A stretch of 64,000 nt of DNA from Comamonas granuli NBRC 101663 (GTDB lineage: Bacteria; Pseudomonadota; Gammaproteobacteria; Burkholderiales; Burkholderiaceae_C). Shown piece by piece: positions 10,562 to 44,909 of the stretch. Numbering within the stretch: the stretch's first letter is position 1; the number at the start of each line of letters is the position of its first letter. A model generated the notes under the pieces. The model saw nothing but the letters and a program-made list of their open reading frames with translations, was not told where the DNA came from and searched no databases. The translations under genes and the position numbers were made by a program. Location: contig NZ_BBJX01000004.1 of assembly GCF_000739995.1 (NCBI RefSeq), positions 62,001-126,000 on the forward strand. The letters run 5' to 3'.

Positions 10562-10576
10562 GGCGGGGACACACCC

Positions 10577-11086
10577 ATGGCTGCCGTTGCTGCTGCTTCC
10601 TTTTCTGTGCGGGACTTCGTCAAGAGCTTCCTGCTGGTCGAACTCGTCAAGGGCATGTCCCTGACAGGCCGTTATGCCTTGCGCCGCAAGGTCACCGTTC
10701 AGTACCCTGAAGAAAAAACCCCGCTGTCGCCGCGCTTTCGCGGCCTGCATGCGCTGCGCCGGTACGACAACGGCGAGGAGCGCTGCATTGCCTGCAAGCT
10801 GTGCGAGGCCGTGTGCCCGGCGATGGCCATCACCATCGAGTCCGACGTGCGCGAGGACGGCACGCGCCGCACCACGCGCTACGACATCGACCTGACCAAG
10901 TGCATTTTCTGCGGCTTCTGCGAGGAAAGCTGTCCGACCGATTCGATCGTGGAGACCTCGATCTTCGAATACCACGGCGAAAAGCGTGGCGACCTGTACT
11001 TCACCAAGGAAATGCTGCTGGCCGTGGGTGACCGGTTCGAGGGCGAGATCGCTGCTGCCAAGGCGGCGGACGCCCCGTACCGCTGA
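10577..11086 (+). CDS. nuoI: NADH-quinone oxidoreductase subunit I
   Basis: The 23-kDa ferredoxin-type subunit that carries clusters N6a and N6b between NuoG and NuoB. 169 residues. Two CxxCxxCxxxC motifs are clear: [13 protein letters not shown] (C70, C73, C76, C80) and [13 protein letters not shown] (C109, C112, C115, C119). The N-terminal ~30 residues form an amphipathic segment contacting the membrane arm. Confidence 0.97.
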
Positions 11087-20053: not shown

Positions 20054-20824
20054 ATGAGCGACGTCATCCTCGAAACCACCCACCTGACCAAAGAATTCAA
20101 AGGATTCACCGCGGTCAGCGACGTGAACCTGACCGTGCGCCGGGGCTCCATCCACGCACTGATCGGCCCCAATGGCGCCGGCAAGACGACTTGCTTCAAC
20201 CTGCTGACCAAGTTCCTGGAGCCTACGTCGGGCACCATCCGCTTCAACGGTCAGGACATCACGCGTGAGCAGCCCGCGCAGATCGCGCGCCGCGGTGTGA
20301 TCCGCTCGTTCCAGATCTCGGCCGTGTTCCCGCACCTCACGCTGCTGGAGAACGTGCGCCTGGGCCTGCAGCGCAAGCTGGGCACCTCGTTCCATTTCTG
20401 GCGCAGTGAAAAATCGCTCAACCAGTTGAACGAGCGCGCGCGCCAACTGCTGGCCGAAGTGGGCCTGCAGGACCTGGCGGACGAAGTCACCGTGAACCTG
20501 CCCTACGGCCGCAAACGCGCGCTGGAGATCGCCACCACCCTGGCCATGGAGCCCGAGCTGATGCTGCTCGACGAGCCCACGCAGGGCATGGGCCACGAAG
20601 ACGTGGACCGCGTCACGCAGCTCATCAAGAAAGTGTCGGCGGGCCGCACCATCCTGATGGTGGAGCACAACATGAAGGTCATCTCGACCATTGCCGACCG
20701 CATCACCGTGCTGCAGCGTGGCGCCGTGCTCGCCGAAGGGCCCTACGAAGAAGTCTCGAACAACCCGCAAGTCATGGAAGCCTACATGGGAACGACCGAC
20801 GGCCAACTGCAGGGAGCGCACTGA
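20054..20824 (+). CDS. Branched-chain amino acid-type ABC transporter ATPase, LivG family
   Basis: 256-residue ATPase of a high-affinity amino-acid (HAAT) importer. Walker A GPNGAGKT is at residues 38-45, the family signature reads NLPYGRKRALEIA, and Walker B is LMLLDEPTQGM. The C-terminal MVEHNMKVISTIADRITVLQRG is typical of LivG. First gene of a five-gene operon with livF (one base after its stop), a binding protein and two permeases. The substrate may be a branched-chain amino acid, but this family also carries urea, amides and aromatic acids, so the name is generic. Confidence 0.9.
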   Translation: MSDVILETTHLTKEFKGFTAVSDVNLTVRRGSIHALIGPNGAGKTTCFNLLTKFLEPTSGTIRFNGQDITREQPAQIARRGVIRSFQISAVFPHLTLLENVRLGLQRKLGTSFHFWRSEKSLNQLNERARQLLAEVGLQDLADEVTVNLPYGRKRALEIATTLAMEPELMLLDEPTQGMGHEDVDRVTQLIKKVSAGRTILMVEHNMKVISTIADRITVLQRGAVLAEGPYEEVSNNPQVMEAYMGTTDGQLQGAH

Positions 20825-20825
20825 G

Positions 20826-21539
20826 ATGGCCGCAACGCCTGCACTGGAAATCCGCAACCTCGAAGCCTGGTATGGCGAATCGCATGTGCTGCATGGCGTG
20901 GACATGGTCGTGCAGCCGGGCGAGGTCGTCACCCTGCTCGGGCGCAACGGCGCGGGCCGCACGTCCACGCTGCGCGCCATCATGGGCCTCACGGGTTCGC
21001 GCAAAGGCTCGGTGAAGATCAACGGCGTGGAGACCATCCACCTGCCCACGCACCGCATCGCCCACCTGGGCGTGGGCTATTGCCCCGAAGAGCGCGGCAT
21101 CTTCTCCAGCCTGTCCTGCGAGGAGAACCTGCTGCTGCCGCCCGTGCTCAAGACGGGGCAGGCGGGCATGTCGGTGCAGGAGATCTACGCCATGTTCCCC
21201 AACCTGGCCGAGCGCAAGAACAGCCAGGGCACGCGCCTGTCGGGCGGTGAGCAGCAGATGCTGGCCGTGGCCCGCATCCTGCGCACGGGTGCCAACCTGC
21301 TGTTGCTCGACGAGATCTCCGAAGGCCTGGCACCCGTCATCGTGCAGGCGCTCGCCCGCATGATCACCATGCTGCGCCAGAAGGGCTACACGGTGGTGAT
21401 GGTGGAGCAGAACTTCCGCTTCGCCGCGCCGCTGGCCGACCGCTTCTACGTGATGGAGCACGGGCGCATCGTGGAGCAATTCGGTGCCGCCGAGCTCGAG
21501 GCGAAGATGCCCGTGCTCAACCAGTTGCTGGGTGTCTGA
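20826..21539 (+). CDS. Branched-chain amino acid-type ABC transporter ATPase, LivF family (Walker A Lys replaced by Arg)
   Basis: 237-residue partner of the LivG-type ATPase. Signature RLSGGEQQMLAVARIL and the LivF-typical PEERGIFSSLSCEENL are clear. The P-loop reads GRNGAGRT (residues 39-46), with Arg45 where nearly all ABC ATPases have Lys, and Walker B is LLLLDEISEGLAP with Ile instead of Pro. I recall the same GAGRT loop in some Burkholderiales LivF proteins, so this is probably a lineage feature and not an error. One ATP site of the heterodimer may be catalytically weak. ATG 20826 follows the preceding stop by one base. Confidence 0.9.
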   Translation: MAATPALEIRNLEAWYGESHVLHGVDMVVQPGEVVTLLGRNGAGRTSTLRAIMGLTGSRKGSVKINGVETIHLPTHRIAHLGVGYCPEERGIFSSLSCEENLLLPPVLKTGQAGMSVQEIYAMFPNLAERKNSQGTRLSGGEQQMLAVARILRTGANLLLLDEISEGLAPVIVQALARMITMLRQKGYTVVMVEQNFRFAAPLADRFYVMEHGRIVEQFGAAELEAKMPVLNQLLGV

Positions 21540-21592
21540 CCCCCGGCGTTTTTTTCATCGACGGATTTTCGACCCTCAACAAGGAGACAAAC

Positions 21593-22795
21593 ATGAGCCG
21601 TAAACTCAAAACCCTGGCAGCCGCATTGGGCGCCGCTGGCCTTTGCCTGGGCGCCGTGCAGGCGCAGGCGCAGGACAAGGTGAAGATCGGCTTCATCACC
21701 GACATGTCGAGCCTGTACGCCGACGTGGACGGCAAGAACGGCGCCATGGCCATCCAGATGGCTATCGATGACTTCGGCGGCAAGGTGCTGGGCAAGCCCA
21801 TCGAGCTGGTCTCGGCCGACCACCAGAACAAGGCCGACATCGCTGCCAGCAAGGCGCGCGAGTGGATCGACACCCAGGGCCTGACCATGCTCTTTGGCGG
21901 CACGAACTCGGGTACCGCCCTGGCCATGGCCAAGATTGCCGACGAGAAGAAGCGCGTGTTCATGGTCAACGGTGCGGGCTCCTCGGCCCTGACCAACGAC
22001 CAGTGCACGCCCTACACCGTGCACTATGCCTATGACACCGTGGCCCTGGCCAAGGGCACGGCCGGCGCCCTCGTCAAGCAGGGCAATAAGGACTGGTTCT
22101 TCCTGACGGCCGACTACGCCTTCGGTGCGGCGCTGGAGTCCGATGCGGCCCGGGTGGTCAAGGAAAACGGCGGGCGCGTGATCGGTTCGGTCAAGCACCC
22201 GCTCAATGCCACGGACTTCTCCTCCTTCCTGCTGCAGGCGCAGAACTCCAAGGCCCAGGTTCTGGGCCTGGCGAACGCGGGCGGTGACACCATCAACGCC
22301 ATCAAGGCCGCCAAGGAATTCGGCATCAACAAGAGCATGAAGATGGTGGGCCTGCTCGTCTTCGTGACCGATGTGCACAGCCTGGGCCTGAAGAACACCG
22401 AAGGCCTGCAACTGACCACGAGCTGGGACTGGAACCTGAACGACAAGACGCGCGCGTTCGGCCACAAGTTCTTCGCCAAGGCCAAGCGCATGCCCACCGA
22501 CATCCAGGCGGCCAACTACTCGGCCACCATGACCTACCTGAAGGCGGTGCAGGCCGCAGGCACCACCGATGCCGACAAGGTCATGGCCAAGCTCAAGTCC
22601 ACGCCCGTGGACGACTTCTACGCCAAGGGCCAGATCCGCCAGGATGGCCGCTTCGTGCACGACATGTACCTGGTGCAGGTCAAGTCGCCCGCCGAGTCCA
22701 AGGAGCCGTGGGACTACTACAAGGTCGTCGCCAAGCTCCCTGGCGAGCAGGTCTATACCACCAAGGCCGAGAGCAAGTGCGCCCTCTGGAAGTGA
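21593..22795 (+). CDS. ABC transporter periplasmic binding protein (LivK/HAAT type)
   Basis: 400-residue periplasmic solute receptor. A Sec signal peptide is evident (MSRKLK, then a hydrophobic Ala/Leu-rich core, cleavage near AQAQAQ-DKVKIG, about residue 24). The mature part begins KVKIGFITDMSSLYADVDG, typical of type I binding proteins of the leucine/amide family. A strong ribosome site (AAGGAGACAAAC) lies just before ATG 21593. It sits between the ATPase and permease genes and is followed by a strong hairpin, which would fit higher expression of the receptor than of the permeases. Confidence 0.9.
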   Translation: MSRKLKTLAAALGAAGLCLGAVQAQAQDKVKIGFITDMSSLYADVDGKNGAMAIQMAIDDFGGKVLGKPIELVSADHQNKADIAASKAREWIDTQGLTMLFGGTNSGTALAMAKIADEKKRVFMVNGAGSSALTNDQCTPYTVHYAYDTVALAKGTAGALVKQGNKDWFFLTADYAFGAALESDAARVVKENGGRVIGSVKHPLNATDFSSFLLQAQNSKAQVLGLANAGGDTINAIKAAKEFGINKSMKMVGLLVFVTDVHSLGLKNTEGLQLTTSWDWNLNDKTRAFGHKFFAKAKRMPTDIQAANYSATMTYLKAVQAAGTTDADKVMAKLKSTPVDDFYAKGQIRQDGRFVHDMYLVQVKSPAESKEPWDYYKVVAKLPGEQVYTTKAESKCALWK

Positions 22796-22803
22796 TGGCC
22801 CGC

Positions 22804-22828
22804 CCCCGCCCGGAGACCCCGGGCGGGG
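22804..22828 (+). other. Strong GC hairpin between binding-protein and permease genes
   Basis: CCCCGCCCGG and CCGGGCGGGG form a perfect 10-bp stem around the loop AGACC, nine bases after the binding-protein stop. No T run follows, so it is not a classic terminator. Such hairpins often stabilise the upstream message or act as a pause or partial terminator. Confidence 0.55.
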
Positions 22829-22878
22829 TGTGAGCCGCGGCTTCCCTGGATCCCTCCCTCCACCTACCCATTTTTGCA

Positions 22879-23763
22879 ATGGAAATCTTCGGTGTCTCCC
22901 TGCCGGCCATGCTGAGCCAGCTCCTGCTGGGGCTGGTCAACGGCTCGTTCTACGCCATCCTCAGCCTGGGCCTGGCCGTGATCTTCGGCCTGCTCAACGT
23001 CATCAATTTTGCGCACGGCGCGCTGTTCATGCTGGGGGCCGTGCTCACCTGGATGGCCATGAGCTACTTCGGCATCAGCTACTGGGTGATGCTGGTGGCC
23101 GCGCCGCTGGTGGTGGGGGCGTTCGGCGTGCTCATCGAGCGCCTGCTGCTGCGCTGGATCTACAAGCTGGACCATCTCTACGGCCTGCTGCTCACGCTGG
23201 GCCTGACCCTGCTCATCGAGGGCATCTTCCGTTCCATCTACGGCGTCTCGGGCCTGGGCTACGACACGCCTGAGCTGCTGGAGGGCGCGACCAGCCTGGG
23301 CTTCATGATCATGCCCAACTACCGCGCCTGGGTGGTGGTGGCCTCCATCGTCGTGTGCATCGCCACCTGGTACGTGATCGAAAAGACCAAGCTCGGCGCC
23401 TACCTGCGCGCCGGCACCGAGAACCCGCGCCTGGTCGAGGCCTTCGGCGTCAACGTGCCCGTGATGATCACGCTCACCTACGCCTTCGGCGCCGCGCTCG
23501 CGGCCTTTGCCGGCGTGCTCGCCGCGCCCGTCTACCAGGTCACGCCGCTCATGGGCCAGAACCTCATCATCGTGGTGTTCGCCGTGGTGGTGATCGGCGG
23601 CATGGGCTCCATCATGGGCTCCATCCTCACCGGCCTGGGCCTGGGCGTGATCGAGGGGTTCACCAAGGTGTTCTACCCCGAGGCCTCGTCCACCGTGGTG
23701 TTCGTCATCATGGCCATCGTTCTTCTCATCCGCCCCGCCGGCTTGTTCGGCAAGGAAAAGTAA
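22879..23763 (+). CDS. Branched-chain amino acid-type ABC transporter permease, LivH family
   Basis: 294-residue inner-membrane permease with about eight hydrophobic helices. The N-terminal LLLGLVNGSFYAILSLGLAVIFGLLNVINFAHG is diagnostic of LivH. The coupling-loop region AGTENPRLVEAFGVNV and the GGMGSIMGSILTGLGLGVIEG stretch near the C-terminus contact the ATPases. Works with the adjacent LivM-type permease to form the translocation path. Confidence 0.92.
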   Translation: MEIFGVSLPAMLSQLLLGLVNGSFYAILSLGLAVIFGLLNVINFAHGALFMLGAVLTWMAMSYFGISYWVMLVAAPLVVGAFGVLIERLLLRWIYKLDHLYGLLLTLGLTLLIEGIFRSIYGVSGLGYDTPELLEGATSLGFMIMPNYRAWVVVASIVVCIATWYVIEKTKLGAYLRAGTENPRLVEAFGVNVPVMITLTYAFGAALAAFAGVLAAPVYQVTPLMGQNLIIVVFAVVVIGGMGSIMGSILTGLGLGVIEGFTKVFYPEASSTVVFVIMAIVLLIRPAGLFGKEK

Positions 23764-23782
23764 AGCCGCAGGGGTGACGCAC

Positions 23783-24790
23783 ATGAATTCCAAGAAAATC
23801 GCACCTTTGGGCTACGGCCTGCTGCTGCTGGGCCTGGTGGCCGCACCCTTCCTCGGCGCCTATCCGGTGTTCGTGATGAAGCTGCTGTGCTTCGCGCTGT
23901 TCGCCTCGGCCTTCAACCTGCTGCTGGGCTACACGGGCCTGCTGTCCTTCGGCCATGCGGCCTTCCTGGGCGGCGCGGCCTACGTCACGGGCCATGTGGT
24001 CAAGGTCTGGGGCGCCACGCCCGAGTTGGGCCTGCTCGCCGGCCTGCTCAGCGGTGCGCTGCTCGGGCTGGTGATGGGCTGGTTCACCATCCGCCGCCAG
24101 GGCATCTACGCCACCATGATCACGCTTGCGCTGGCGCAGATGCTGTTCTTCGCCGCGCTGCAGATGCCCTTCACGGGCGGCGAGGACGGGCTGCAGGGCG
24201 TGCCGCGCGGCAAGCTGTTCGGCCTGCTGGACCTCTCCAGCGACCTCACCATGTACTACGTCTGCCTGGTGGTGGTAGTGGTGGCCTTTCTGCTCATCGT
24301 GCGCACCATCCATTCGCCCTTCGGCCAGGTGCTCAAGGGCATCAAGGAGAACGAGCCGCGCGCCACCTCGCTGGGCTACGACACCAACCGCTTCAAGCTG
24401 CTGGCCTTCGTGATCTCGGCGGCCATCGCCGGGCTGGCCGGTGCGCTCAAGACCCTGGTGCTGGGCTTTGCCACGCTCTCGGACGTGCACTGGAGCGCCT
24501 CGGGCCATGTGGTGCTGATGACGCTGGTGGGCGGCATGGGCACGCTCAGCGGCCCGCTGGTGGGCGCGGCCGTGGTGGTGGCGCTGGAGAACAAGATCGG
24601 CGAGCTGGGCACCCTGCTGGCCCAGCTCACCACGGTGGACTGGTTCAACTCCCTGGGCGAGTCGGTCACCATCGTCACGGGCCTGATCTTCGTGGTCTGC
24701 GTGCTGGCCTTCCGCCGCGGCATCATGGGCGAGCTCATCGCCTGGATGGATCGCCGCCGCACGGGCGGCGGGGACGGCGGCGCGCATTGA
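23783..24790 (+). CDS. Branched-chain amino acid-type ABC transporter permease, LivM family
   Basis: 335-residue permease. Recognised by SAFNLLLGYTGLLSFGHAAFLGGAAY, RRQGIYATMITLALAQMLFF and KENEPRATSLGYDTNRFKLLAF. ATG 23783 is chosen over an in-frame GTG three codons upstream because it gives the usual N-terminus. Last gene of the operon, followed by a repeat and then a strong terminator. Confidence 0.92.
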   Translation: MNSKKIAPLGYGLLLLGLVAAPFLGAYPVFVMKLLCFALFASAFNLLLGYTGLLSFGHAAFLGGAAYVTGHVVKVWGATPELGLLAGLLSGALLGLVMGWFTIRRQGIYATMITLALAQMLFFAALQMPFTGGEDGLQGVPRGKLFGLLDLSSDLTMYYVCLVVVVVAFLLIVRTIHSPFGQVLKGIKENEPRATSLGYDTNRFKLLAFVISAAIAGLAGALKTLVLGFATLSDVHWSASGHVVLMTLVGGMGTLSGPLVGAAVVVALENKIGELGTLLAQLTTVDWFNSLGESVTIVTGLIFVVCVLAFRRGIMGELIAWMDRRRTGGGDGGAH

Positions 24791-34716: not shown

Positions 34717-34746
34717 TTGTATGAAATTACTGTTTCATTAAATATT
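34717..34746 (+). promoter_or_regulatory. Candidate promoter with embedded operator ahead of the RpiR-type regulator
   Basis: ATGAAA-six bases-TTTCAT (34721-34738) is a perfect inverted repeat in an otherwise unusually AT-rich stretch. It lies between a -35-like TTGTAT (34717-34722) and a -10-like AATATT (34741-34746) with 18-base spacing. This is the place expected for autoregulation by the SIS-domain repressor whose gene starts 60 bases downstream. Assignment is by position and symmetry only. Confidence 0.4.
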
Positions 34747-34806: not shown

Positions 34807-35688
34807 ATGAAAGACGCCGCCAGAGCTTTGCCCGCAGAGGATGCACAAACGATCGAGCAATTGATCCGCAGCCGCTACGACGATTTGTCGCCATCGGACC
34901 GCAAGCTGTCGGACGTGATCGTTGCCCACCAGAAGGATCTGGCGGCCTATTCCGCCACCGAGCTGGCGCAACTGGCCGGCGTCTCCAAGGCCAGCGCGGC
35001 GCGCTATTTCAAGCGCATCGGCTACCAGGATTTCAATGAGTTCCGCACGGCGATCCGCGCCCGCGTTTCCTCGGAGTCCCCGCTGTTCAACCTGGACCGG
35101 GTGGCGCAGGCGGGGGACCCGCATCCCGGTTTCACCAGCCACATCGAGGCCGACATCCGGAATCTGGCGACGACGCTGGAGCGCCTGGGCTCCGGTGACC
35201 TGAACCGTGCGCTGGAGCTGCTGAAGAACGCGCGCCGCATCTGGGTCGTTGGCTACCGCAACGGCTATGCCAGCGCCTTTTACGCCCATGCGCTGTTTTC
35301 CCACGCCAAGGCGGACGTTGCGCTGATCAACGAGGCAGCGAGCAAGAGCGCGGACGTGCTGGTCGACATGGAAAAGCGCGACGTGCTGTTCGCTATCGAC
35401 TTCCGCCGCCGTACCCGGCTGCTGCCCAAGGTGGTCCGGGTGGCGCGCGAAGCGGGCGCCTCGGTGGTGCTGCTGACCTACGCACCGCTGTCCGACGTGG
35501 CTTCGCTGGCCAACGTGGTGCTGCATTGCCCGACCCAGGGCTCGGCGATCTTCGATTCCTATGTGGCGGCCATGAGCATCGTGAACTACCTGGGGATGGA
35601 GCTGGTGACCGACGCGCAGGCAAGTTCCCGCAAGCGCATGCAGCGCATCGAGCGCATCCACCAGATGCTGGACGACCTTGACGAATAA
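34807..35688 (+). CDS. MurR/RpiR family transcriptional regulator (HTH + SIS)
   Basis: 293 residues. The N-terminal RpiR helix-turn-helix is clear (YSATELAQLAGVSKASAARYFKRIGYQDFNEFR, residues ~49-80), followed by a SIS domain from about 135. Unlike sugar-phosphate-sensing members, the first ligand loop reads VVGYRNGYAS (149-156) where GxGxS is usual. The second reads AIDFRRRTR (196-204) where SxSGxT is usual. The ligand is therefore probably not a phosphosugar. It is the first gene of a plus-strand set with diaminopropionate ammonia-lyase, two carbamoyl hydrolases and a Dpp-type importer, and presumably controls them. Confidence 0.88.
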   Translation: MKDAARALPAEDAQTIEQLIRSRYDDLSPSDRKLSDVIVAHQKDLAAYSATELAQLAGVSKASAARYFKRIGYQDFNEFRTAIRARVSSESPLFNLDRVAQAGDPHPGFTSHIEADIRNLATTLERLGSGDLNRALELLKNARRIWVVGYRNGYASAFYAHALFSHAKADVALINEAASKSADVLVDMEKRDVLFAIDFRRRTRLLPKVVRVAREAGASVVLLTYAPLSDVASLANVVLHCPTQGSAIFDSYVAAMSIVNYLGMELVTDAQASSRKRMQRIERIHQMLDDLDE

Positions 35689-35709
35689 CCCCTTTTCATG
35701 GAGAGAAAA

Positions 35710-36942
35710 ATGTCTGCCATTCCCGCCATCGCCGTCGATGTGTTCCTGAATCCCGCGCTGGACCGCAGTGCCGCCTACGGCGCTGCGCGCAGCGCCATTC
35801 TGGGCCAGGAGGCCTTGTCCGCCGCGCGCGCGGACATCCAGACCTGGCCCGGCTACGCCGTCACGCCGCTGCACAGCCTGCCGGGCATGGCGCGGGATGT
35901 CGGCGTGGCCAGCATCCAGTACAAGGACGAGGGCGGGCGCTTCGGTCTCGGTAGTTTCAAGGCATTGGGCGGTGCCTACGCCGTGGCGCGCCTGCTGTGC
36001 CGGGTGATCGGCGAGCAAACGGGGCAGGCCGTGACGACGCAGCAGCTCCTGGCAGGCGCGCACCGTGACCTGGCGCAACAGGTCACAGTGACCTGCGCCA
36101 CCGACGGCAACCACGGGCGCTCGGTGGCCTGGGGCGCGCAACTGTTCGGCTGCCGCTGCGTGATCTACATCCACGCCACCGTCAGCGAAGGGCGCCGCCA
36201 GGCCATCGAGCACTACGGCGCGCAGGTGGTGCGCACTGCCGGCAACTATGACGACGCCGTGCGCCAGGCCGACGCGGATGCCAAGGCGCTCGGCCGCTAC
36301 GTGATCTCCGATACCTCTTACGAGGGCTACATGGATGTGCCGCGCGACGTGATGCAGGGCTACCAGCTCATGGTGGAGGAGGCCGTGCAGCAGGCGGGAG
36401 CGATGCCCACCCATGTCTTCATCCAGGGCGGCGTGGGCGGCCTGGCGGCGGCCGTCTGCGGCTACTTCTGGGAGCGCCTGGGCAGCGCGCGCCCGCGCGT
36501 CATCGTGGTCGAGCCCGAGCGTGCCGACTGCCTGATGCAAAGCGCGCGCAGCGGCAAGATCACTGCGGTGCATGGCGATCTGGACACCCTGATGGCCGGC
36601 CTCGCGTGCGGCGAGGTGTCGCTGCTGGCCTGGAGCATCCTGGAGGCGGGGGCGGACGCCTTTGCCGTGATTGCCGATCAGGCGGCGATCGACACCATGC
36701 GCCTGCTGGCTGCGCCGGCAGCAGGCGATCCGGCGATCGTCGCCGGCGAATCGGCCGTGGCCGGGCTGGCGGCAGCGCTCGGCGTGGCCCAGAACGCCGG
36801 GCAGCGCGCGGCGCTTGGCATCGATGGCGACAGCCGCCTGATGTTCTTCGGCAGCGAGCGTGACACCGATCCGGTGCTCTACCGCGAGCTGGTCGGCCGC
36901 AGCGCCGCCGAGGTGCTGGCCGCCGCGGGAGCGCGCGCATGA
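35710..36942 (+). CDS. dpaL: 2,3-diaminopropionate ammonia-lyase
   Basis: PLP enzyme (YgeX/DpaL type) splitting 2,3-diaminopropionate to pyruvate and two ammonia; the E. coli enzyme accepts both D and L forms. 410 residues. PLP lysine K84 is in RFGLGSFKALGGAYA. D132 in ATDGNHGRSVAWGA and D201 in ISDTSYEGY correspond to the two catalytic Asp residues of the E. coli enzyme. The glycine loop FIQGGVGGLAAAV binds PLP phosphate. ATG 35710 is preferred over ATG 35698 because GGAGA (35700-35704) is correctly spaced for it. The stop overlaps the next gene (ATGA). Confidence 0.92.
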   Translation: MSAIPAIAVDVFLNPALDRSAAYGAARSAILGQEALSAARADIQTWPGYAVTPLHSLPGMARDVGVASIQYKDEGGRFGLGSFKALGGAYAVARLLCRVIGEQTGQAVTTQQLLAGAHRDLAQQVTVTCATDGNHGRSVAWGAQLFGCRCVIYIHATVSEGRRQAIEHYGAQVVRTAGNYDDAVRQADADAKALGRYVISDTSYEGYMDVPRDVMQGYQLMVEEAVQQAGAMPTHVFIQGGVGGLAAAVCGYFWERLGSARPRVIVVEPERADCLMQSARSGKITAVHGDLDTLMAGLACGEVSLLAWSILEAGADAFAVIADQAAIDTMRLLAAPAAGDPAIVAGESAVAGLAAALGVAQNAGQRAALGIDGDSRLMFFGSERDTDPVLYRELVGRSAAEVLAAAGARA

Positions 36943-38171
36943 CTGCGGCTGCCATCAATGGCCCGCGCCTGCTCGCCTGCCTGGCCGAGCTGGGCACGGT
37001 CGGCGGCCTGCCGGGCGGCGGCGTCTGCCGCCTGGCGCTGACGGATGCCGACAGAGAGGGGCGCGACTGGGTGGTCGGGCGCATGCGCGCGCTCGGCATG
37101 GAGGTCACTGTCGATGCGATCGGCAATGTGGTCGCCGTCTACGCGGGGCGCGAGCCCGGCCCGCCGGTGATGACCGGCTCGCATATCGACACGGTGCGCA
37201 CTGGCGGCCTGTACGACGGCAACTACGGTGTCCTGGCGGGTCTCGAGGTGATTGCCGCGCTGCGCGATGCCCATGTGCGCACCCGCCGCCCGCTGGCAGT
37301 GGCGTTCTTCACCAACGAGGAGGGCGCGCGCTTCGCCCCGGACATGATGGGCAGCCTGGTGTTCCAGGGCGGCCTGCCGCTGGACGAGGCGCTCGCTACG
37401 CGCGGCATCGACGGTGCCACGGTCGGCGAGGAGTTGCACCGCATCGGCTACGCCGGCGCCGCGCCGGTGGGTACGAACCGGGTCGACAGCTTCGTCGAAC
37501 TGCACATCGAGCAAGGTCCGGTGCTGGACCGTGAGGGCGTGCAGATCGGTGTGGTCGAAGGGGTGCAGGGAATTTCCTGGACCGAGTTCACGCTGCATGG
37601 CGTCTCCAACCATGCCGGCACCACGCCCATGCACATGCGCAACGACGCCGGCTACGTGGCGGCGCGTGTGGCGACCTTCGCGCGCGCACTGACGCAGCGC
37701 TATGGCGGCAACCAGATCGCGACGGTGGGCGCGCTGACGCTCACGCCCAATCTGGTGAACGTGATCCCGAACAAGGCCTTGTTCACCGTGGACCTGCGCA
37801 ATACCGACGGCGCGGCGCTGCAGGCGGCGGAGGCCGAACTGTGGTCGTTCGCCGAGCAGGCCGCGGCCGATGAAGGCGTGGCCTGCGAGCGGCGCATGCT
37901 CGCGCGCTTCGACCCGGTGCAGTTCGATCCCGTGCTGATCGAACGCGTGGAGTACGCGGCCCGGGCGCAAGGGCGCAGCTGCCGCCGCATGCCCAGCGGT
38001 GCCGGGCACGACGCGCAGATGCTGGCGCGCATGTGCCCGACCGGAATGATCTTCGTGCCCAGCGTGAAGGGCCTTTCGCACAACGTGAAAGAGCACACCG
38101 AGCCGGCCGACCTGGTGGCCGGCGCCGAGGTCTTGCTGCAGGTTCTGGTGGAGCTTGCGGATCGCCCCTGA
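36939..38171 (+). CDS. M20-family Zn-dependent amidohydrolase (N-carbamoyl-L-amino acid hydrolase / allantoate amidohydrolase-like)
   Basis: 410-residue binuclear metallo-amidase that cleaves ureido (N-carbamoyl) groups to amine, CO2 and ammonia in its family. Metal ligands are visible: H82 in GSHIDTV, D93 in LYDGNYGVLAG, E128 with catalytic E127 in FFTNEEGARF, H189 in VELHIEQGPVLD and H381 in VKGLSHNVKEHT. The dimerisation and substrate parts HGVSNHAGTTPM and MPSGAGHDAQM are typical of carbamoylases, allantoate hydrolases and beta-ureidopropionases. Coupled to dpaL by a four-base overlap. The substrate is inferred to be a carbamoylated diaminopropionate; exact specificity cannot be read. Confidence 0.88.
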   Translation: MTAAAINGPRLLACLAELGTVGGLPGGGVCRLALTDADREGRDWVVGRMRALGMEVTVDAIGNVVAVYAGREPGPPVMTGSHIDTVRTGGLYDGNYGVLAGLEVIAALRDAHVRTRRPLAVAFFTNEEGARFAPDMMGSLVFQGGLPLDEALATRGIDGATVGEELHRIGYAGAAPVGTNRVDSFVELHIEQGPVLDREGVQIGVVEGVQGISWTEFTLHGVSNHAGTTPMHMRNDAGYVAARVATFARALTQRYGGNQIATVGALTLTPNLVNVIPNKALFTVDLRNTDGAALQAAEAELWSFAEQAAADEGVACERRMLARFDPVQFDPVLIERVEYAARAQGRSCRRMPSGAGHDAQMLARMCPTGMIFVPSVKGLSHNVKEHTEPADLVAGAEVLLQVLVELADRP

Positions 38172-38234
38172 CGATGGCTGCATCGGCAGGGATTGGAGGA
38201 GTGGGTTTTTTTGGATAGTGGATAGGAGAAAGTC

Positions 38235-39197
38235 GTGGCACGTATCGTCAATGTTGCACTTGGCCAGTTGGGGCCGATCCAGCGCAGCGACACCCGCGAG
38301 CAGGTGGTCAAACGCCTGTGCGCGCTGATGCGCGAGGCGCATGCGCTGGGCGCGGACCTCATCGTTTACCCGGAACTGGCGCTGACCACGTTCTTCCCGC
38401 GCTGGTACATCGAGGACGAGGCTGAAATCAACAGCTACTTCGAAACCTCCATGCCCAATGCGGCCACGCAGCCGCTGTTCGATCTGGCGCGGGAGCTGGG
38501 GGTTGGCTTCTACCTGGGCTATGCCGAGCTGGCGCAGGAGGGCGGCGGGCTGGTGCGCTACAACACCTCGATCCTGGTCGACAAGGCGGGGCGCATCGTC
38601 GACAAGTACCACAAGGTGCATGTCCCGGGCCATTTCGAGCACGAGCCGTGGCGGCGCTTCCAGCACCTGGAGAAACGCTATTTCAAGCCGGGCCACCGCT
38701 TTGGCGTGGTCCAGGCGTTTGGCGGCGTGTTCGGCATGGCGCTGTGCAACGACCGCCGCTGGGCCGAGACTTACCGCGTTCTGGGGCTGCAGGGCGTCGA
38801 GATGGTGCTCATCGGCTACAACACCCCAGTCCACAACGCTCCGGCGCCCGAGCATGACGACCTCTCGTTGTTCCACAACCGCCTGTCGATGCAGGCGGGC
38901 GCCTACCAGAACGGCACCTGGGTGGCTGGTGTCGCCAAGGCGGGTGTCGAGGAAGGCGTCGACAGCATCGGCGGCAGTTGCCTGATCGCGCCTTCGGGCG
39001 AGGTGGTTGCCGCCTGCACCACCAAGGGCGACGAGGTGGCGCTGGCCCGCTGCGACCTGGATTTCTGTGCGGTCTACAAGAAGACCACCTTCAATTTTGA
39101 CCTGCACCGGCAACCCCGTGCCTACGGAATGATCGTCGAGCGCAAGGGCGAGACGCTCGCCGCCGACGGCTCACCCTGGCAGGCCCCAGCGCATTGA
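38235..39197 (+). CDS. N-carbamoyl-D-amino acid hydrolase (nitrilase superfamily)
   Basis: 320-residue Cys hydrolase, very similar in layout to Agrobacterium D-carbamoylase (opening VALGQLGPIQRSDTREQVV, then YPELALTTFFPRW and HRQPRAYGMI). The catalytic triad is intact: E47 in VYPELALTT, K127 in KYHKVHVPGH and C171 in MALCNDRRW. It removes a carbamoyl group from N-carbamoyl-D-amino acids or related ureido acids. It follows the M20 carbamoylase by 63 bases, so the locus encodes two unrelated enzymes for the same bond type. No hydantoinase or hydantoin racemase is present in the window. Confidence 0.88.
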   Translation: MARIVNVALGQLGPIQRSDTREQVVKRLCALMREAHALGADLIVYPELALTTFFPRWYIEDEAEINSYFETSMPNAATQPLFDLARELGVGFYLGYAELAQEGGGLVRYNTSILVDKAGRIVDKYHKVHVPGHFEHEPWRRFQHLEKRYFKPGHRFGVVQAFGGVFGMALCNDRRWAETYRVLGLQGVEMVLIGYNTPVHNAPAPEHDDLSLFHNRLSMQAGAYQNGTWVAGVAKAGVEEGVDSIGGSCLIAPSGEVVAACTTKGDEVALARCDLDFCAVYKKTTFNFDLHRQPRAYGMIVERKGETLAADGSPWQAPAH

Positions 39198-39225
39198 TCA
39201 ACTTGGCGCTCGACCAAGGCTTCTT

Positions 39226-39235
39226 CCCCCCCCCC
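39226..39235 (+). repeat. C10 homopolymer in the leader of the binding-protein gene
   Basis: Ten consecutive C residues lie 30 bases upstream of ATG 39266 and outside any coding region. Tracts this long are prone to slipped-strand length change. Confidence 0.8.
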
Positions 39236-39265
39236 ACCCATAAGAGTCAGACAAGGAGACAAACC

Positions 39266-40849
39266 ATGCTTTACCGTCCACATTGCACGAACCGCTTGCT
39301 CACATCGGTCGTTCTCGCCGTAGCCACCATGGGCGCCGGTATGGCGCTGGCGGCTACCGATGCCAAGACCATCCACATGATCCCGCAGGGTGACCTCAAG
39401 ATCCTGGATCCGATCCAGAATCCGTCCTACATCACGCGCAACCACGGCTACATGGTGTACGACACGCTGTTTGCTCAAAACAGCAAGGGCGAGGTCAAGC
39501 CGCAGATGATCGATGCCTACAAGGTCTCGGCCGACAAGAAGGTCTGGACCTTCACCCTGCGCGCCGGGCTCAAGTGGAGCGACGGCACGCCGGTGACGGC
39601 CGCCGATTGCGTGGCCTCGATCAAGCGCTGGGCGGCCCGGGATGTCTCTGGACGCCTGCTGGCCGCGGCCATCGGCGAGCTCAAGGCGGTCGATGCCAGC
39701 ACCTTCACGATCACGCTCGCCAAACCGTTCGGCCCCGTGATCGAGATGCTGGGCAAGCCGTCCTCGAACGTGCCGTTCATGATGCCCGAGCGCGTCGCCA
39801 AGACCGAGCCGACCGAGCAGATCAAGGACACCACCGGCTCCGGTCCGTTCATCTTCAAGAAGGACGAATGGGTTCCGGGCAGCAAGGTGGTGTACGTGAA
39901 GAACCCGCACTATGTGCCGCGCAAGGAGCCGGCCGACGGCCTGGCGGGCGGCAAGGTGGTCCATGTCGAGCGCGTCGTCTGGAACTTCATCCCGGACCAG
40001 AACACCGCGCTGTCGGCCTTCAAGGGCGGTGAGATGGATGTCTACGAACTGCCGCCCGCCGACTTCCTGGACCCGCTGACCAAGGACGCGAACGTGAAAC
40101 TGGCAGTGGACCCGCTGGGCAACCAGGGCTGGCTGCGGCCGAACCACCAGCTGCCGCCCTTCAATCACCCCAAGGCGCGCCAGGCCCTGACCTATCTGGT
40201 GAACCAGGACGAGTACCTGGCGGCAGCGGGCTTTCCCGCCAAGTACCGCCATCCGGCCTGCATGGCCTATTTCATGTGCGGCAGCGTGAACGACACCAAG
40301 GCGGGCGCGCAAGCCTACCAGGGCGGCCAGAACCTGGAGAAGGCCAAGCAACTGCTCAAGGAGGCGGGCTACAAGGGTGAAAAGGTCGTGGTGCTGGCAC
40401 CGTCGGAGCCGCCGATCCAGGCGGCTGCGGCCCTGGTGACGATCCAGAACCTGAAGAAGATCGGCGTCAACGTCGAGGCCCAGGCGATGGATTGGGGAAC
40501 CCTGCAGGCGCGCCGCGCCAAGAAGGACGGCTGGAACATCTTCCACACCTATTCGGTCGGCGCCGACGTCTACTCTCCCGCCGTCAACGCCTATGCCCAG
40601 GCCAGTTGCGAGGCCGCGCCGTCTGGCTGGCCCTGCGACGCGGAGCTGGAAAAGCTGCGCGCGGATTGGGTGGCCGAGAGCGATCCGGCAGCGCGCAAGC
40701 AACTGACCGATGCCATCCAGACACGCATGTACGAAGTCGTGCCCTATGTGAATTTCGGCCAGTTCTTCCAGCCCATGGCCTACCGCAGCAATCTCAGCGG
40801 CGTGCTGAACGTCGGCATCCCGGTGATGTGGAACGTCGAGAAGAAATAA
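39266..40849 (+). CDS. ABC transporter substrate-binding protein, peptide/nickel (SBP_bac_5) family
   Basis: 527-residue periplasmic receptor. A Sec signal peptide (LLTSVVLAVATMGAGMALAA, cleavage near residue 34) is followed by KTIHMIPQGDLKILDPI and VYDTLFAQNSKGEVKPQMIDAYKVS, as in DppA/OppA-type proteins. The C-terminal YVNFGQFFQPMAYRSNLSGV is also family-typical. ATG 39266 has a strong ribosome site, ACAAGGAGACAAAC, identical to that of the liv-type binding protein at 21593; the frame open to 39194 has none. It belongs to a complete Dpp/Opp-type importer and presumably brings in the compound degraded by the upstream enzymes. Confidence 0.9.
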   Translation: MLYRPHCTNRLLTSVVLAVATMGAGMALAATDAKTIHMIPQGDLKILDPIQNPSYITRNHGYMVYDTLFAQNSKGEVKPQMIDAYKVSADKKVWTFTLRAGLKWSDGTPVTAADCVASIKRWAARDVSGRLLAAAIGELKAVDASTFTITLAKPFGPVIEMLGKPSSNVPFMMPERVAKTEPTEQIKDTTGSGPFIFKKDEWVPGSKVVYVKNPHYVPRKEPADGLAGGKVVHVERVVWNFIPDQNTALSAFKGGEMDVYELPPADFLDPLTKDANVKLAVDPLGNQGWLRPNHQLPPFNHPKARQALTYLVNQDEYLAAAGFPAKYRHPACMAYFMCGSVNDTKAGAQAYQGGQNLEKAKQLLKEAGYKGEKVVVLAPSEPPIQAAAALVTIQNLKKIGVNVEAQAMDWGTLQARRAKKDGWNIFHTYSVGADVYSPAVNAYAQASCEAAPSGWPCDAELEKLRADWVAESDPAARKQLTDAIQTRMYEVVPYVNFGQFFQPMAYRSNLSGVLNVGIPVMWNVEKK

Positions 40850-40945
40850 ACCGGCACACCGGCGCATGAGCCCCGGCCGGCTGCGGACACCTGCGCCGGC
40901 CGGCTGGCAGCCCCATCCTGTTTCCAGAGCAACCAGAGATTCCCC

Positions 40946-41884
<939 letters not shown>

Positions 41885-41918
41885 CGCGGCAGACGCAAGT
41901 ATCCAGGAGCTTTTCAAG

Positions 41919-42803
41919 ATGGATGTCACTCTCGACCAACTGGAGGCGCGCATCGCACGCGAAGCGCGCCGGCCGTACCTGCTGCGCTTTGCCACGCGCC
42001 ATCCGATGCTGGTGCTGGGCCTGGCGCTGCTGCTGGCAATGCTGCTGGCGGCCTTGCTGGCGCCCTGGCTGAGTCCGCACGACCCGACCGAGATGAACGT
42101 GGTCCAGCGCCTGAAGCCGGCCTCGGCCACCTACCTGTTCGGTACCGACGCCCTCGGGCGCGACATCCTCTCGCGCACGCTGTACGGCGCGCGCGTCTCG
42201 CTGCTGGTCGGCTTTTGCGTTGCGCTGCTGAGCGTCGCAGTGGGCATCGTGATCGGCACCGTGGCTGGATTCAGCCGCTGGGCCGACGCCGTGATCATGC
42301 GGATCATGGACGGCATGATGGCCATTCCCGGCATCCTGCTGGCGGTGGCGCTGATGACCCTGATGCAGGCCAGCATCCAGACCGTGGTGATCGCCATCGC
42401 CCTGCCGGAAATTCCGCGCGTGGTGCGGCTGGTCCGTTCGCTGGTGCTGACCATCCGCGAGCAGCCCTATATCCAGGCGGCGGAAGCGATGGGCACGCGC
42501 CTGCCGGTGATCCTGGCGCGCCATGTGGTGCCCAACCTGTTGACGCCGCTCATCGTGCAGGCCAGCTTCATCTGCGCCTCGGCCATGATCTTCGAAGCCT
42601 ACCTCAGCTTCCTCGGCGCCGGCACGCCGCCCGAAGTGCCAAGCTGGGGCAACATCATGGCCGACGGCCGTTCGGTGGTGCAACTGGCGTTCGGCGTGAT
42701 TCTGTACCCGGGGCTGTTCCTCGGGTTCACGGTACTGGCAGTGAACCTGGTCGGCGACGGCCTGCGTGATCTGCTCGACCCCCGCATCGCCAAGAAACTC
42801 TGA
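41919..42803 (+). CDS. ABC transporter permease, DppC/OppC type
   Basis: 294-residue permease. An amphipathic cytoplasmic N-terminus precedes the first helix (MLVLGLALLLAMLLAALLAPW). LFGTDALGRDILSRTLYGARVSLLVG and the EAA loop YIQAAEAMGTRL (about 186-197) are typical of DppC, as is the ending DGLRDLLDPRIAKKL. Forms the membrane channel with the DppB-type protein. Confidence 0.92.
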   Translation: MDVTLDQLEARIAREARRPYLLRFATRHPMLVLGLALLLAMLLAALLAPWLSPHDPTEMNVVQRLKPASATYLFGTDALGRDILSRTLYGARVSLLVGFCVALLSVAVGIVIGTVAGFSRWADAVIMRIMDGMMAIPGILLAVALMTLMQASIQTVVIAIALPEIPRVVRLVRSLVLTIREQPYIQAAEAMGTRLPVILARHVVPNLLTPLIVQASFICASAMIFEAYLSFLGAGTPPEVPSWGNIMADGRSVVQLAFGVILYPGLFLGFTVLAVNLVGDGLRDLLDPRIAKKL

Positions 42804-42816
42804 CCTGGAGCCCGAC

Positions 42817-43830
42817 ATGAGCAGCCCGATACTTGAAGTCGACGACCTGCACCTGAGCTTTGCCAGCCGCGACGGCGTCACGCGCGCGGTGGAAGGCATC
42901 TCCTACCAGGTGCATGCGGGTGAAATGCTGGGCGTGGTCGGCGAGTCCGGCTGCGGCAAGAGCGTGACCGCGATGGCCATCCTGCGCCTGCTGCCCCCAG
43001 CGCCCACCACCCATGCACGCGGCGCGATCCGCTTTCGCGGCGAAGACCTGCTGCAGGCCAGCGAGGCGCGCATGCAGGAGATTCGCGGCAATGCGATCTC
43101 CATGATCTTCCAGGATCCCATGACCTCGCTGAACCCGGTGCTGACCGTAGGCGAGCAGATCGCCGAAGTCCTGATCCTGCACCAGCGCCTGGGCCGCAAG
43201 GCGGCCTGGGAGCGTGCGGTCGAATTGCTGGCGCTGGTCAATATTCCCGACCCGCAGCGGCGCGTGAAGGAGTACCCCCACCAGTTTTCCGGCGGCATGC
43301 GCCAGCGCGCCATGATTGCGCTGGCGCTGGCCTGCAAGCCGGCCGTGCTGATCGCCGATGAGCCGACCACCGCCCTGGACGTCACGATCCAGGCGCAGAT
43401 CATGGATCTGCTCGACCGCCTGCGGCGCGAGACCGGCACCGCGATCGTGCTCATCACGCACGATCTCGGGGTGGTTGCCGAGAGCTGCGACCGGGTGGTG
43501 GTGATGTACGCCGGGCGCAAGGTCGAAGAGGCGGGCACCGCCGAGCTGTTCGCCCGCCCCAGCCATCCCTACACCCGCGGCCTGCTGGGCGCGATGCCCC
43601 ACCTCGATACACCGCTGACGCAGCCGCGCACGCGCCTGTCCGAGATTCCCGGCATGGTGCCCTCGCTGCGCACCGCGGCCGTAGGTTGCCGCTTCGCCCC
43701 GCGCTGCGCGCAGGTGCAAGACGTCTGCCACACGCGGATCCCGCCGCTGGAGGGGCTGACCGCCACTGATGACACCCACCGCGCGGCCTGCTGGCAACTC
43801 GCGCAGGTTTTCGAGAGGGCCGCCGCATGA
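42817..43830 (+). CDS. ABC transporter ATP-binding protein, DppD/OppD type
   Basis: 337-residue ATPase. Walker A GESGCGKSV lies at residues 42-50; the signature is FSGGMRQRAMIALAL and Walker B VLIADEPTTALD. The C-terminal oligopeptide-transporter domain shows SHPYTRGLLGAMP and the cysteines of CRFAPRCAQVQDVC, the iron-sulfur or Zn-binding pattern of this family. The ATG at 42817 is chosen; the open frame upstream lies within the permease. The stop overlaps the next ATPase by four bases. Confidence 0.92.
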   Translation: MSSPILEVDDLHLSFASRDGVTRAVEGISYQVHAGEMLGVVGESGCGKSVTAMAILRLLPPAPTTHARGAIRFRGEDLLQASEARMQEIRGNAISMIFQDPMTSLNPVLTVGEQIAEVLILHQRLGRKAAWERAVELLALVNIPDPQRRVKEYPHQFSGGMRQRAMIALALACKPAVLIADEPTTALDVTIQAQIMDLLDRLRRETGTAIVLITHDLGVVAESCDRVVVMYAGRKVEEAGTAELFARPSHPYTRGLLGAMPHLDTPLTQPRTRLSEIPGMVPSLRTAAVGCRFAPRCAQVQDVCHTRIPPLEGLTATDDTHRAACWQLAQVFERAAA

Positions 43831-44909
43831 ACCACCTTTCCGCCGAACTCACGCAAGTCGCTGCCGTGGCCGCCAAGCCTGCGCTGCTGGAGGTACAGAA
43901 CCTGGTCAAGTACTACCCAGGGCGGGGCGTCTGGCCGCGCCCGCGCCCGATCAAGGCGGTCGACGACATTTCCTTCTCGATCGGCTACGGGGAAACGCTG
44001 GGGCTGGTGGGCGAATCGGGCTGCGGCAAGTCGACCGCCGCCAAGACCATCCTGCGCCTGATCGAGCCGACCGCGGGCCGCATCCTGCTGGAGGGAACCG
44101 ACGTCGCCAATCTGTCGCCCGCCCAGTTCCGCCCGTACCGGCGGGACTTGCAGATCGTGTTCCAGGACCCCTATGCGTCGCTCAATCCGCGCATGCGCGC
44201 GGCCGAGATCGTCGCCGAGCCGCTGCGCAATTTCTCCCAGGGCAAGGCGGTGGACCCGGAGCGTGTGGCCGAGCTGTTCGAGCGCGTCGGGCTGGACAAG
44301 GCGGCCATGCGCAAGTTCCCGAGTGAGTTTTCGGGCGGCCAGCGCCAGCGCCTGGGCATTGCCCGCGCACTCGCGCTCAAGCCCAAGCTGATCGTCTGCG
44401 ATGAGCCGGTGTCCGCGCTCGACGTCTCCATCCAGGCGCAGGTCATCAACCTGCTGCAGGACCTGCAACAGGATCTCGGTCTGTCCTACCTGTTCGTCGC
44501 ACACGACCTGGCCGTGGTGCGGCACATCAGCCAGCGTGTCGCGGTGATGTACCTGGGCCGGATCGTCGAAATCGGCCCGGTCGGCACGCTGTACACGCAG
44601 CCGCGCCATCCCTACACCAAAGCCCTGCTGGCGGCGGTGCCGAAGATCGGCGCACAGGGCGCGCGGGAAAAGACCCTGTTGAAGGGCGACATCCCCAGCC
44701 CGGCCCAGCCCCCGTCAGGCTGCACCTTCCGCACCCGCTGCCCGATGGCGCAGCCGGAATGCGCCCACAGTGCGCCTGCCTTGCAGGCGCAGGGCGAGGG
44801 GCACTGGGCTGCCTGCCATTTCATAGGGGCGGAGGGGTCCAAGGCTGGCAAGGCCTGGCGCGCGCCGGCGGACGGTGCGCAAGTCCCTAGCGCCAGCGCC
44901 ACGCCATGA
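43827..44909 (+). CDS. ABC transporter ATP-binding protein, DppF/OppF type
   Basis: 360-residue second ATPase of the importer. Walker A GESGCGKST is at 62-70, signature FSGGQRQRLGIARAL, Walker B LIVCDEPVSALDVSIQ. RHPYTKALLAAVP and the Cys-containing CTFRTRCPMAQPEC follow. The C-terminal ~40 residues are longer than usual and run 23 bases into the 3' end of the convergent MFS gene. Last gene of the catabolic locus; no terminator is visible. Confidence 0.92.
   Translation: MNHLSAELTQVAAVAAKPALLEVQNLVKYYPGRGVWPRPRPIKAVDDISFSIGYGETLGLVGESGCGKSTAAKTILRLIEPTAGRILLEGTDVANLSPAQFRPYRRDLQIVFQDPYASLNPRMRAAEIVAEPLRNFSQGKAVDPERVAELFERVGLDKAAMRKFPSEFSGGQRQRLGIARALALKPKLIVCDEPVSALDVSIQAQVINLLQDLQQDLGLSYLFVAHDLAVVRHISQRVAVMYLGRIVEIGPVGTLYTQPRHPYTKALLAAVPKIGAQGAREKTLLKGDIPSPAQPPSGCTFRTRCPMAQPECAHSAPALQAQGEGHWAACHFIGAEGSKAGKAWRAPADGAQVPSASATP

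Follow-up and report, generated by a model that had tools for sequence, protein, structure and literature searches.

Which compound is broken down by the operon at positions 34807-44909 of the window, the 64,000-nucleotide stretch of Comamonas granuli NBRC 101663 analysed here, and to which pathway does it belong? The operon comprises nine plus-strand open reading frames (ORFs) encoding an RpiR-family regulator, a 2,3-diaminopropionate ammonia-lyase (DpaL), an M20 amidase, an N-carbamoyl-D-amino-acid hydrolase (D-carbamoylase) and the five components of a Dpp/Opp-type ATP-binding cassette (ABC) importer; profile and solved-structure matches bear out the gene set and order proposed in the initial annotation. 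The operon is probably a purely hydrolytic version of the reductive urate pathway's lower arm, which stands detached from the upper arm and receives its substrate by import. This reading draws on alphaproteobacterial genomes in which the same three enzymes are encoded beside homologues of YgfK, xanthine dehydrogenase (XDH) and SsnA.

In the proposed route the Dpp-type importer would bring in an open-chain ureido-2,3-diaminopropionate, with 2,3-diureidopropionate or one of its mono-ureido products as the likeliest candidates. The D-carbamoylase would act on the D isomer and release its 2-ureido group as CO2 and ammonia, replacing either YgeW, which is phosphorolytic, or UacY; the M20 amidase would strip the 3-ureido group, replacing YgeY; and DpaL would convert diaminopropionate into pyruvate and ammonia. 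The RpiR protein would control the operon through a palindrome at 34722-34737. Substrates, regiochemistry, stereochemistry and what the regulator binds and senses are deduced here from the families of the enzymes, their conserved catalytic positions, the neighbouring upper-arm genes of relatives and a shared palindrome; the imported compound may be diureidopropionate or a mono-ureido form, or else come from plants, as albizziine does.

The reductive urate pathway and the nearest known systems

Work on gut bacteria established the reductive urate pathway in 2025. According to the main text of PMC12507026, HyuA opens ureidomethyl-hydantoin to 2,3-diureidopropionate, YgeW or UacY (the two reported solutions for the 2-ureido group) together with YgeY remove the ureido groups, and YgeX, which accepts both D and L isomers, yields pyruvate. 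PMC12990295 describes the order of ureido cleavage as disputed, mentions that an R configuration has been proposed and poses the question whether the intermediate is albizziin or 3-amino-2-ureidopropionate, and in which configuration.

The E. coli cluster, ordered ygeW-ygeX-ygeY-hyuA-yqeA ... ygfK-ssnA-ygfM-xdhD, shares with the window a terminal YgeX-type lyase and, as proposed, the removal of two ureido groups from a diaminopropionate core; YgfK, XDH and SsnA of like kinds accompany the cassette in alphaproteobacterial relatives. It differs in using YgeW with YqeA where the window has a nitrilase-superfamily D-carbamoylase, and YgeY where the window has an M20 protein of hydantoinase/carbamoylase type; the window locus lacks the upper arm and has an ABC importer. 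The Clostridioides difficile variant, as described in the main text of PMC12507026, resembles the window in removing the 2-ureido group by hydrolysis rather than phosphorolysis, with a D-type substrate implied, but its UacY, a D-aminoacylase homologue, is a PF07969 amidohydrolase whereas the window enzyme is a CN_hydrolase (PF00795). Hydantoin utilisation, which couples a D-hydantoinase to a D-carbamoylase, shares the D-carbamoylase family; in contrast, the window genome has no D-hydantoinase over the cut-off and the window operon includes a diaminopropionate lyase. The open-access literature searched showed no account of a D-carbamoylase acting in the reductive urate pathway, and the main text of PMC12507026 does not contain the words carbamoylase, nitrilase, ureidopropionase or Pleomorphomonas.

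The three enzymes

The family assignments of the window proteins are secure at the level of sequence comparison. Model matches are given below as score/cut-off. The window DpaL exceeded TIGR01747 (321.8/274) as well as the model listed in Table 1, and is 39% identical to E. coli YgeX. YgeX K77, D120 and D189, which we take to be the catalytic positions, align with K88, D136 and D205, invariant across seven aligned sequences including the window's, and the protein was placed in the YgeX family of diaminopropionate ammonia-lyases.

The window M20 protein exceeded NF006769 (474/452) and NF006771 (423.1/399) in addition to TIGR01879 (Table 1), and its solved relatives include N-carbamoyl-beta-alanine and N-carbamoyl-L-amino-acid hydrolases. 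It was not recognised as the 3-ureido hydrolase YgeY (NF009555, 22.7 bits against 321), being of another M20 branch, nor as AllC (TIGR03176, 279/597.75). Residues H82, D93, E127, E128, H189, H225, N274, R287 and H381, presumably functional, are kept in six aligned sequences.

The nitrilase-type protein matched eleven distinct solved D-carbamoylase sequences over nearly the full length (E values 1e-118 to 2e-113), and E47, K127, C171, R174 and R175, which we assume to be catalytic, are invariant among six aligned sequences including the window's. It was identified as an N-carbamoyl-D-amino-acid hydrolase by this similarity and these residues, no NCBIfam model being exceeded (best TIGR03381, 95.8/410.25). 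The initial annotation had taken both hydrolases for carbamoyl-cleaving types; the families were confirmed, the D-specific family of the nitrilase having escaped it. All three enzymes look active. The substrates of D-carbamoylases carry the N-carbamoyl group on the alpha carbon of a D-amino acid, and the window enzyme is therefore a candidate for the 2-ureido group; since beta-ureidopropionases belong to the M20 family, the window member may act on the 3-ureido group.

Co-location with the upper arm in relatives

In Pleomorphomonas carboxyditropha (L091) a same-strand run of six genes, with ORF bounds that abut or overlap, encodes DpaL, M20, D-carbamoylase, a YgfK homologue, an XDH and an SsnA-like amidohydrolase. 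The YgfK homologue contains 4Fe-4S domains and is 37% identical to E. coli YgfK over 494 amino acids (aa), the XDH exceeds TIGR03311 (881.9/830.45) and the SsnA-like protein is 36.5% identical to E. coli SsnA over 323 aa. When 397 genomes of the same alphaproteobacterial order were searched with this YgfK homologue, 17 were found to carry it. Near it, in the fetched stretches, M20 was identified in 16, D-carbamoylase in 15 and DpaL in 13 of the 17, and the cassette lies beside YgfK, XDH and SsnA homologues in 13, which supports the shorter, importer-fed branch of diureidopropionate breakdown put forward in the initial annotation.

The run DpaL-M20-D-carbamoylase-YgfK-XDH-SsnA, with RpiR divergent, was identified in 12 genomes (in L216 the D-carbamoylase matches in two pieces and in L218 SsnA is cut by the contig end). 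These are mostly close kin, with YgfK 87-100% identical except in L224 (85%) and L225 (71%), and do not count as 12 independent cases. No match to YgeY, YgeW or the D-aminoacylase-like protein of L083 was identified in these 12 stretches (UacY was not used as a query), so that removal of the two ureido groups would fall to the D-carbamoylase and the M20 amidase. A separate arrangement is that of genome G584 (L229, L231), where a full-length E. coli-type YgfK (36% over 1072 aa) shares its strand with SsnA (35%), an XdhD-like protein (26%) and a XanQ-like permease (33%), the opposite strand carrying DpaL, M20 and D-carbamoylase (53%, 61% and 61% identical to the window's, respectively). In L226 and L227 the gene run is M20-D-carbamoylase-YgfK-XDH-SsnA.

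Other elements related to the pathway were identified beside the cassette, in line with the link to diureidopropionate that had been suggested. A YgeY-type gene over the NF009555 cut-off is present in L064 (407.2/321) and L074 (371.4/321), and E. coli YgeY found matches of 31% in L065 and 30% in L193. A D-hydantoinase lies on the cassette stretch in L103 (516.5/393.25), with a partial piece below the cut-off in L098 (369.4). D-hydantoinases also occur in loci without D-carbamoylase: L132 (561.1, directly downstream of DpaL) and L130 (a 66% match). D-aminoacylase-like proteins were identified in L068, L083, L095 and L112 (NF006560 152.5-194.2, all below 340), that of L083 matching PF07969, the Pfam given for UacY. 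Finally, L064 contains a xanthine-permease-like NCS2 protein (347.5, below 414.15) and an SsnA/ATZ-type amidohydrolase (TIGR03314 143.3, below 455.5).

Upper-arm searches in the window genome

The window genome presented no SsnA match at E<=1e-30, no D-hydantoinase over the cut-off (best 55.4/393.25) and YgfK matches only at model positions 438-899 (best 237.9/835.3); the N-terminal YgfK part, shared by the Pleomorphomonas protein, lies outside these positions. Sought as SsnA, YgfK and hydantoinase, the whole reductive urate pathway was not identified in the window genome (XdhD was not searched for). For lack of these three elements the substrate probably arrives already open via the importer, which agrees with the importer-fed short form that had been supposed. 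Elsewhere in the Pleomorphomonas genome one hydantoinase exceeds the cut-off. Among 14 control genomes one (SsnA), one (YgfK) and two (D-hydantoinase) exceeded the cut-offs, E. coli being among the matching ones.

A YgeW search confined to the window and 99 loci gave no match at E<=1e-25 (UacY was not a query); where the known pathway uses YgeW or UacY for the 2-ureido group, the window has the D-carbamoylase. In 22 cassette genomes (the window's and 21 others) neither SsnA nor YgfK exceeded the cut-offs, with matches below them at E<=1e-30 in 12 (SsnA) and in all 22 (YgfK). The absence of a urate link, at first suggested by the zero of 22, was overturned by L091 and by the survey of its order.

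Recurrence of the cassette

In the family of the window organism a DpaL match at E<=1e-60 was identified in 34 of 299 genomes and a D-carbamoylase match in 16. Close D-carbamoylases (>=67% identity) were present in 8 genomes, close DpaL proteins (>=54%) in 10 and both in 7 (Fisher p = 2e-11, with thresholds chosen after the lists were seen and genomes that are not phylogenetically independent). The two genes co-occur in the family more often than expected by chance, in one cluster in 6 of the 7 genomes and on different contigs in G138.

Outside the family, the best 80 of at least 589 confirmed DpaL relatives in public genomes were taken, a sample biased towards the window DpaL in which some loci repeat genomes (L059 is the Malikia of L039, and L066 matches L042). 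With membership set at >=50% identity, D-carbamoylase was identified in 32 of the 80 loci, M20 in 27 and both in 25, these 25 holding all three enzymes. In 30 of the 32 the D-carbamoylase gene follows DpaL on its strand at a distance of no more than 2 kb. Among the carriers are Malikia, Rhodoferax, Cupriavidus, Achromobacter, Alcaligenes, Halomonas, Vibrio, Marinicella and several Rhodobacterales. The DpaL-M20-D-carbamoylase cassette is found repeatedly in Proteobacteria, together with differing transporters.

In the D-carbamoylase tree, from which 10 rows were left out because of a stop or a short aligned piece (L091 among them) and in which L152 forms a very long branch, cassette rows are split from four non-cassette rows by one branch (support 80, not starred), and urate-linked rows fall among the cassette rows at two places.

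A second DpaL group, 45-51% identical, contains DpaL and an M20 carbamoylase-type domain in one ORF of about 812 aa (L047:8651-11092, L050:9407-11845 and L053:8350-10788), the neighbour being by eye an M20D amidohydrolase; this natural fusion supports the DpaL-M20 link. A different diaminopropionate context is found in L077, L082, L084, L088 and L093 (about 11.2-14 kb; Vibrio, Thalassospira, Zobellella and a metagenome-assembled genome of Oceanospirillaceae), where DpaL is accompanied by Lrp-like and M20D-like genes and a protein of about 265 aa (cluster f19), by eye of Asp/Glu racemase type. In L070:1534-5539 a flavoprotein resembling, by eye, dihydroorotate dehydrogenase and a protein 27% identical to XanQ precede DpaL, which may be another reductive nucleobase arrangement. 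L148 carries another D-carbamoylase beside a by-eye D-hydantoinase, which spans two ORFs, and an amino-acid receptor; genes for hydantoin use are commonly arranged in this way.

The regulator and the upstream palindrome

RpiR homologues about 27-49% identical to the window's were identified near the cassette in relatives. About 70 bp upstream of the window RpiR start lies the palindrome TGAAA-N6-TTTCA, an element absent from the initial annotation. It is the only match in the window, with none in 100 shuffles, and occurs at one place only in the 3.5 Mb window genome, where the reversed control pattern is also found once.

The exact palindrome was identified in 14 of the 32 D-carbamoylase loci, that is, in 14 of 21 with an RpiR homologue and in none of the 11 without. 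These 14 loci contain 18 exact sites, of which 16 lie within 300 bp upstream of the cassette RpiR gene; the other two, both in L098, precede another RpiR homologue and a PotD-like receptor gene. In the same 32 loci one reversed and three permuted control patterns gave no matches, spacers of 5, 7 and 8 gave none and a spacer of 4 gave one. Six of the seven RpiR loci lacking an exact site present one-mismatch sites, a count made without a control pattern. Paired sites 29-30 bp apart are exact in L060 and L061 and have one mismatch in L059, L062 and L063. All 12 full urate runs contain the palindrome. The exact form is absent from L039, L040, L041, L043 and the short contig L010, and present in L046 (G003), a locus where DpaL at 9521-10758 is in two frames, perhaps a pseudogene or an assembly error. 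Genome-wide counts gave 1 to 12 sites in 19 of 20 relatives, so the palindrome is not exclusive to the cassette in them. It is a probable binding site of the RpiR protein.

Burkholderiaceae bacterium 16 (G300; L177/L193) holds, at L193:6549-13569, a second RpiR-DpaL-M20-D-carbamoylase copy with its own palindrome and a YgeY-like gene.

Transporters

The window importer has the complete Dpp/Opp composition (solute-binding protein of family 5, two permeases and two oligo_HPY ATPases). Among solved chains, 8vdx is the closest to its receptor (E 8e-108); the name of that chain indicates no ligand. Of all parts of the locus the importer is the least conserved, and many relatives have another transporter type. 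Dpp/Opp importers with a receptor 39-49% identical to the window's were identified in L068, L074, L095 and L118; a polar-amino-acid ABC type in L059-L063; a tripartite ATP-independent periplasmic (TRAP) type is present in L075, L078, L081, L087, L092, L094 and L106; a PotD-like ABC type in L103 and, by eye, in L089, L091, L098 and L102; and a major facilitator superfamily (MFS) type in L064 and L065. Only four were scored against family models: L081 exceeded DctP TIGR00787 (191.1/175.05), whereas L103 PotD (72.5, below 582) and the MFS proteins of L064 and L065 (TIGR00893, 340.3 and 351.8, below 395) did not reach the cut-offs.

Weighing the explanations

Several results weigh against the assignment to the urate pathway. 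Its urate link rests on genera other than the window's, neither the window nor the family loci L039-L046 giving a match to E. coli upper-arm proteins at E<=1e-12. The window DpaL missed the stricter TIGR03528 (353.4/532.25), and the YgeY-like genes of L064 and L074 missed TIGR03526 (221.5 and 232.5 against 321.5). The SsnA of L091 scores below its curated cut-offs (NF005540 252.8/444, TIGR03314 241/455.5), for which reason these cut-offs are not decisive for absence (the L091 YgfK was not scored on TIGR03315). Some YgfK stretches lack the full cassette: L226 and L227 are without DpaL, L228 has M20 only and L230, at a contig end, has none of the three. No hydantoinase was identified in the 12 full runs. 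No D-carbamoylase is present in the stretch of 48 of the 80 DpaL loci (7 of them with less than 3 kb downstream), and M20 is lacking in 7 of the 32 D-carbamoylase loci. D-hydantoinase exceeds the cut-off in 12 of the 22 cassette genomes, so hydantoin could be the source in some.

The seven loci without a nearby M20 would also suit a stereochemical division of labour, in which the M20 and nitrilase enzymes, as L- and D-carbamoylase respectively, remove one ureido group from the two enantiomers of a mono-ureido diaminopropionate, with DpaL taking both products. The M20 relatives do include N-carbamoyl-L-amino-acid hydrolases, and the YgeX catalytic positions are conserved, YgeX itself taking both isomers (main text of PMC12507026). 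This division is nevertheless unlikely, given the 12 upper-arm runs with no match to YgeY, YgeW or the L083-type protein (UacY not being a query), where two enzymes must clear both ureido groups, which favours a split by position. That the operon serves legume L-albizziine, imported without relation to urate, is decidedly unlikely: M20 and DpaL would suffice and a polar-amino-acid importer replaces Dpp in close relatives, but the D-carbamoylase, not needed for this compound, is a frequent partner (32 of 80 loci), the YgfK, XDH and SsnA link exists in relatives and several carriers are, by name, marine or halophilic genera.

A general use of N-carbamoyl-D/L-amino acids or hydantoins, DpaL being one of several outlets, could draw on the established breadth of both hydrolase families, on the arrangement in L148 and on the D-hydantoinases of the 12 cassette genomes. 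It is very unlikely for the window, whose genome has no D-hydantoinase over the cut-off (best 55.4/393.25), and the cassette D-carbamoylases track DpaL and the urate upper arm and are separate in the tree from the four non-cassette ones by the branch mentioned above. Scarcely probable at all is an oxidative, allantoate-type use of purines with the M20 enzyme as allantoate amidohydrolase. NF006769, the subfamily of that name, and NF006771 are exceeded, yet the AllC equivalog TIGR03176 falls far below its cut-off, and neither DpaL nor the D-carbamoylase would have a reason in that route.

Layout of the operon

The features of the operon are collected in Table 1.

Table 1. Position and supporting evidence of the operon features (window coordinates).
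Feature	Position	Strand	Evidence and remarks
Operator-like palindrome TGAAA-N6-TTTCA	34722..34737	.	probable RpiR site, inferred
RpiR-family transcriptional regulator	34807..35688	+	Pfam HTH_6 52.3 bits, SIS 51.8 bits
DpaL, 2,3-diaminopropionate ammonia-lyase (YgeX family)	35698..36942	+	NF006058 522.9/276; alternative ATG at 35710
M20 amidase, hydantoinase/carbamoylase family; proposed 3-ureido hydrolase	36939..38171	+	TIGR01879 404.2/204
N-carbamoyl-D-amino-acid hydrolase (nitrilase superfamily); proposed 2-ureido hydrolase	38235..39197	+	solved D-carbamoylases; GTG start
Family 5 solute-binding protein, Dpp/Opp-type importer	39266..40849	+	SBP_bac_5 253.3 bits
Permease, DppB/OppB type	40946..41884	+	BPD_transp_1 139.5 bits and N-terminal domain
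Permease, DppC/OppC type	41919..42803	+	BPD_transp_1, OppC_N
ATPase, DppD/OppD type	42817..43830	+	ABC_tran and oligo_HPY; start by codon score, upstream GTG 42766 also open
ATPase, DppF/OppF type	43827..44909	+	ABC_tran and oligo_HPY

RpiR and DpaL are separated by 9 bp, DpaL and M20 overlap by 4 bp and the D-carbamoylase follows M20 after 63 bp; further downstream the distances are 68 bp to the receptor, then 96, 34 and 13 bp, with a final overlap of 4 bp. The first three enzymes had been described as close-packed, which is correct for DpaL and M20: tight packing comprises RpiR, DpaL and M20, and the D-carbamoylase is not tightly packed. The scans of the operon identified two terminator-like sites, a smaller number than in shuffles, and three short tandem-repeat arrays inside one permease gene; a sigma-70-like site was not identified. 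Elsewhere in the window, positions 20054-24790 encode what by eye is an amino-acid ABC importer of branched-chain type (two ATPases, a receptor and two permeases), with no link to the cassette seen.

Meaning for the pathway and its carriers

A D-type carbamoylase fits the R configuration that, according to PMC12990295, has been proposed. It points to removal of a D-configured 2-ureido group and so bears on the question of order and stereochemistry; the cassette makes testable the question posed there, of which intermediate is formed and in which configuration. The chances are about even that a third, purely hydrolytic lower arm, formed by D-carbamoylase, HyuC-type M20 and DpaL, is widespread in Proteobacteria, occurring inside complete operons for urate as well as alone, in the latter case as an importer-fed cassette that lets other bacteria live on ureido-diaminopropionates from urate degraders. 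If so, the 2-ureido group would have a third solution with unrelated enzymes, and the pathway would be widened to many soil, marine and freshwater Proteobacteria. The intermediates of the pathway would then be suggested as a shared nutrient, and simple irreversible hydrolases would be available for rebuilding it.

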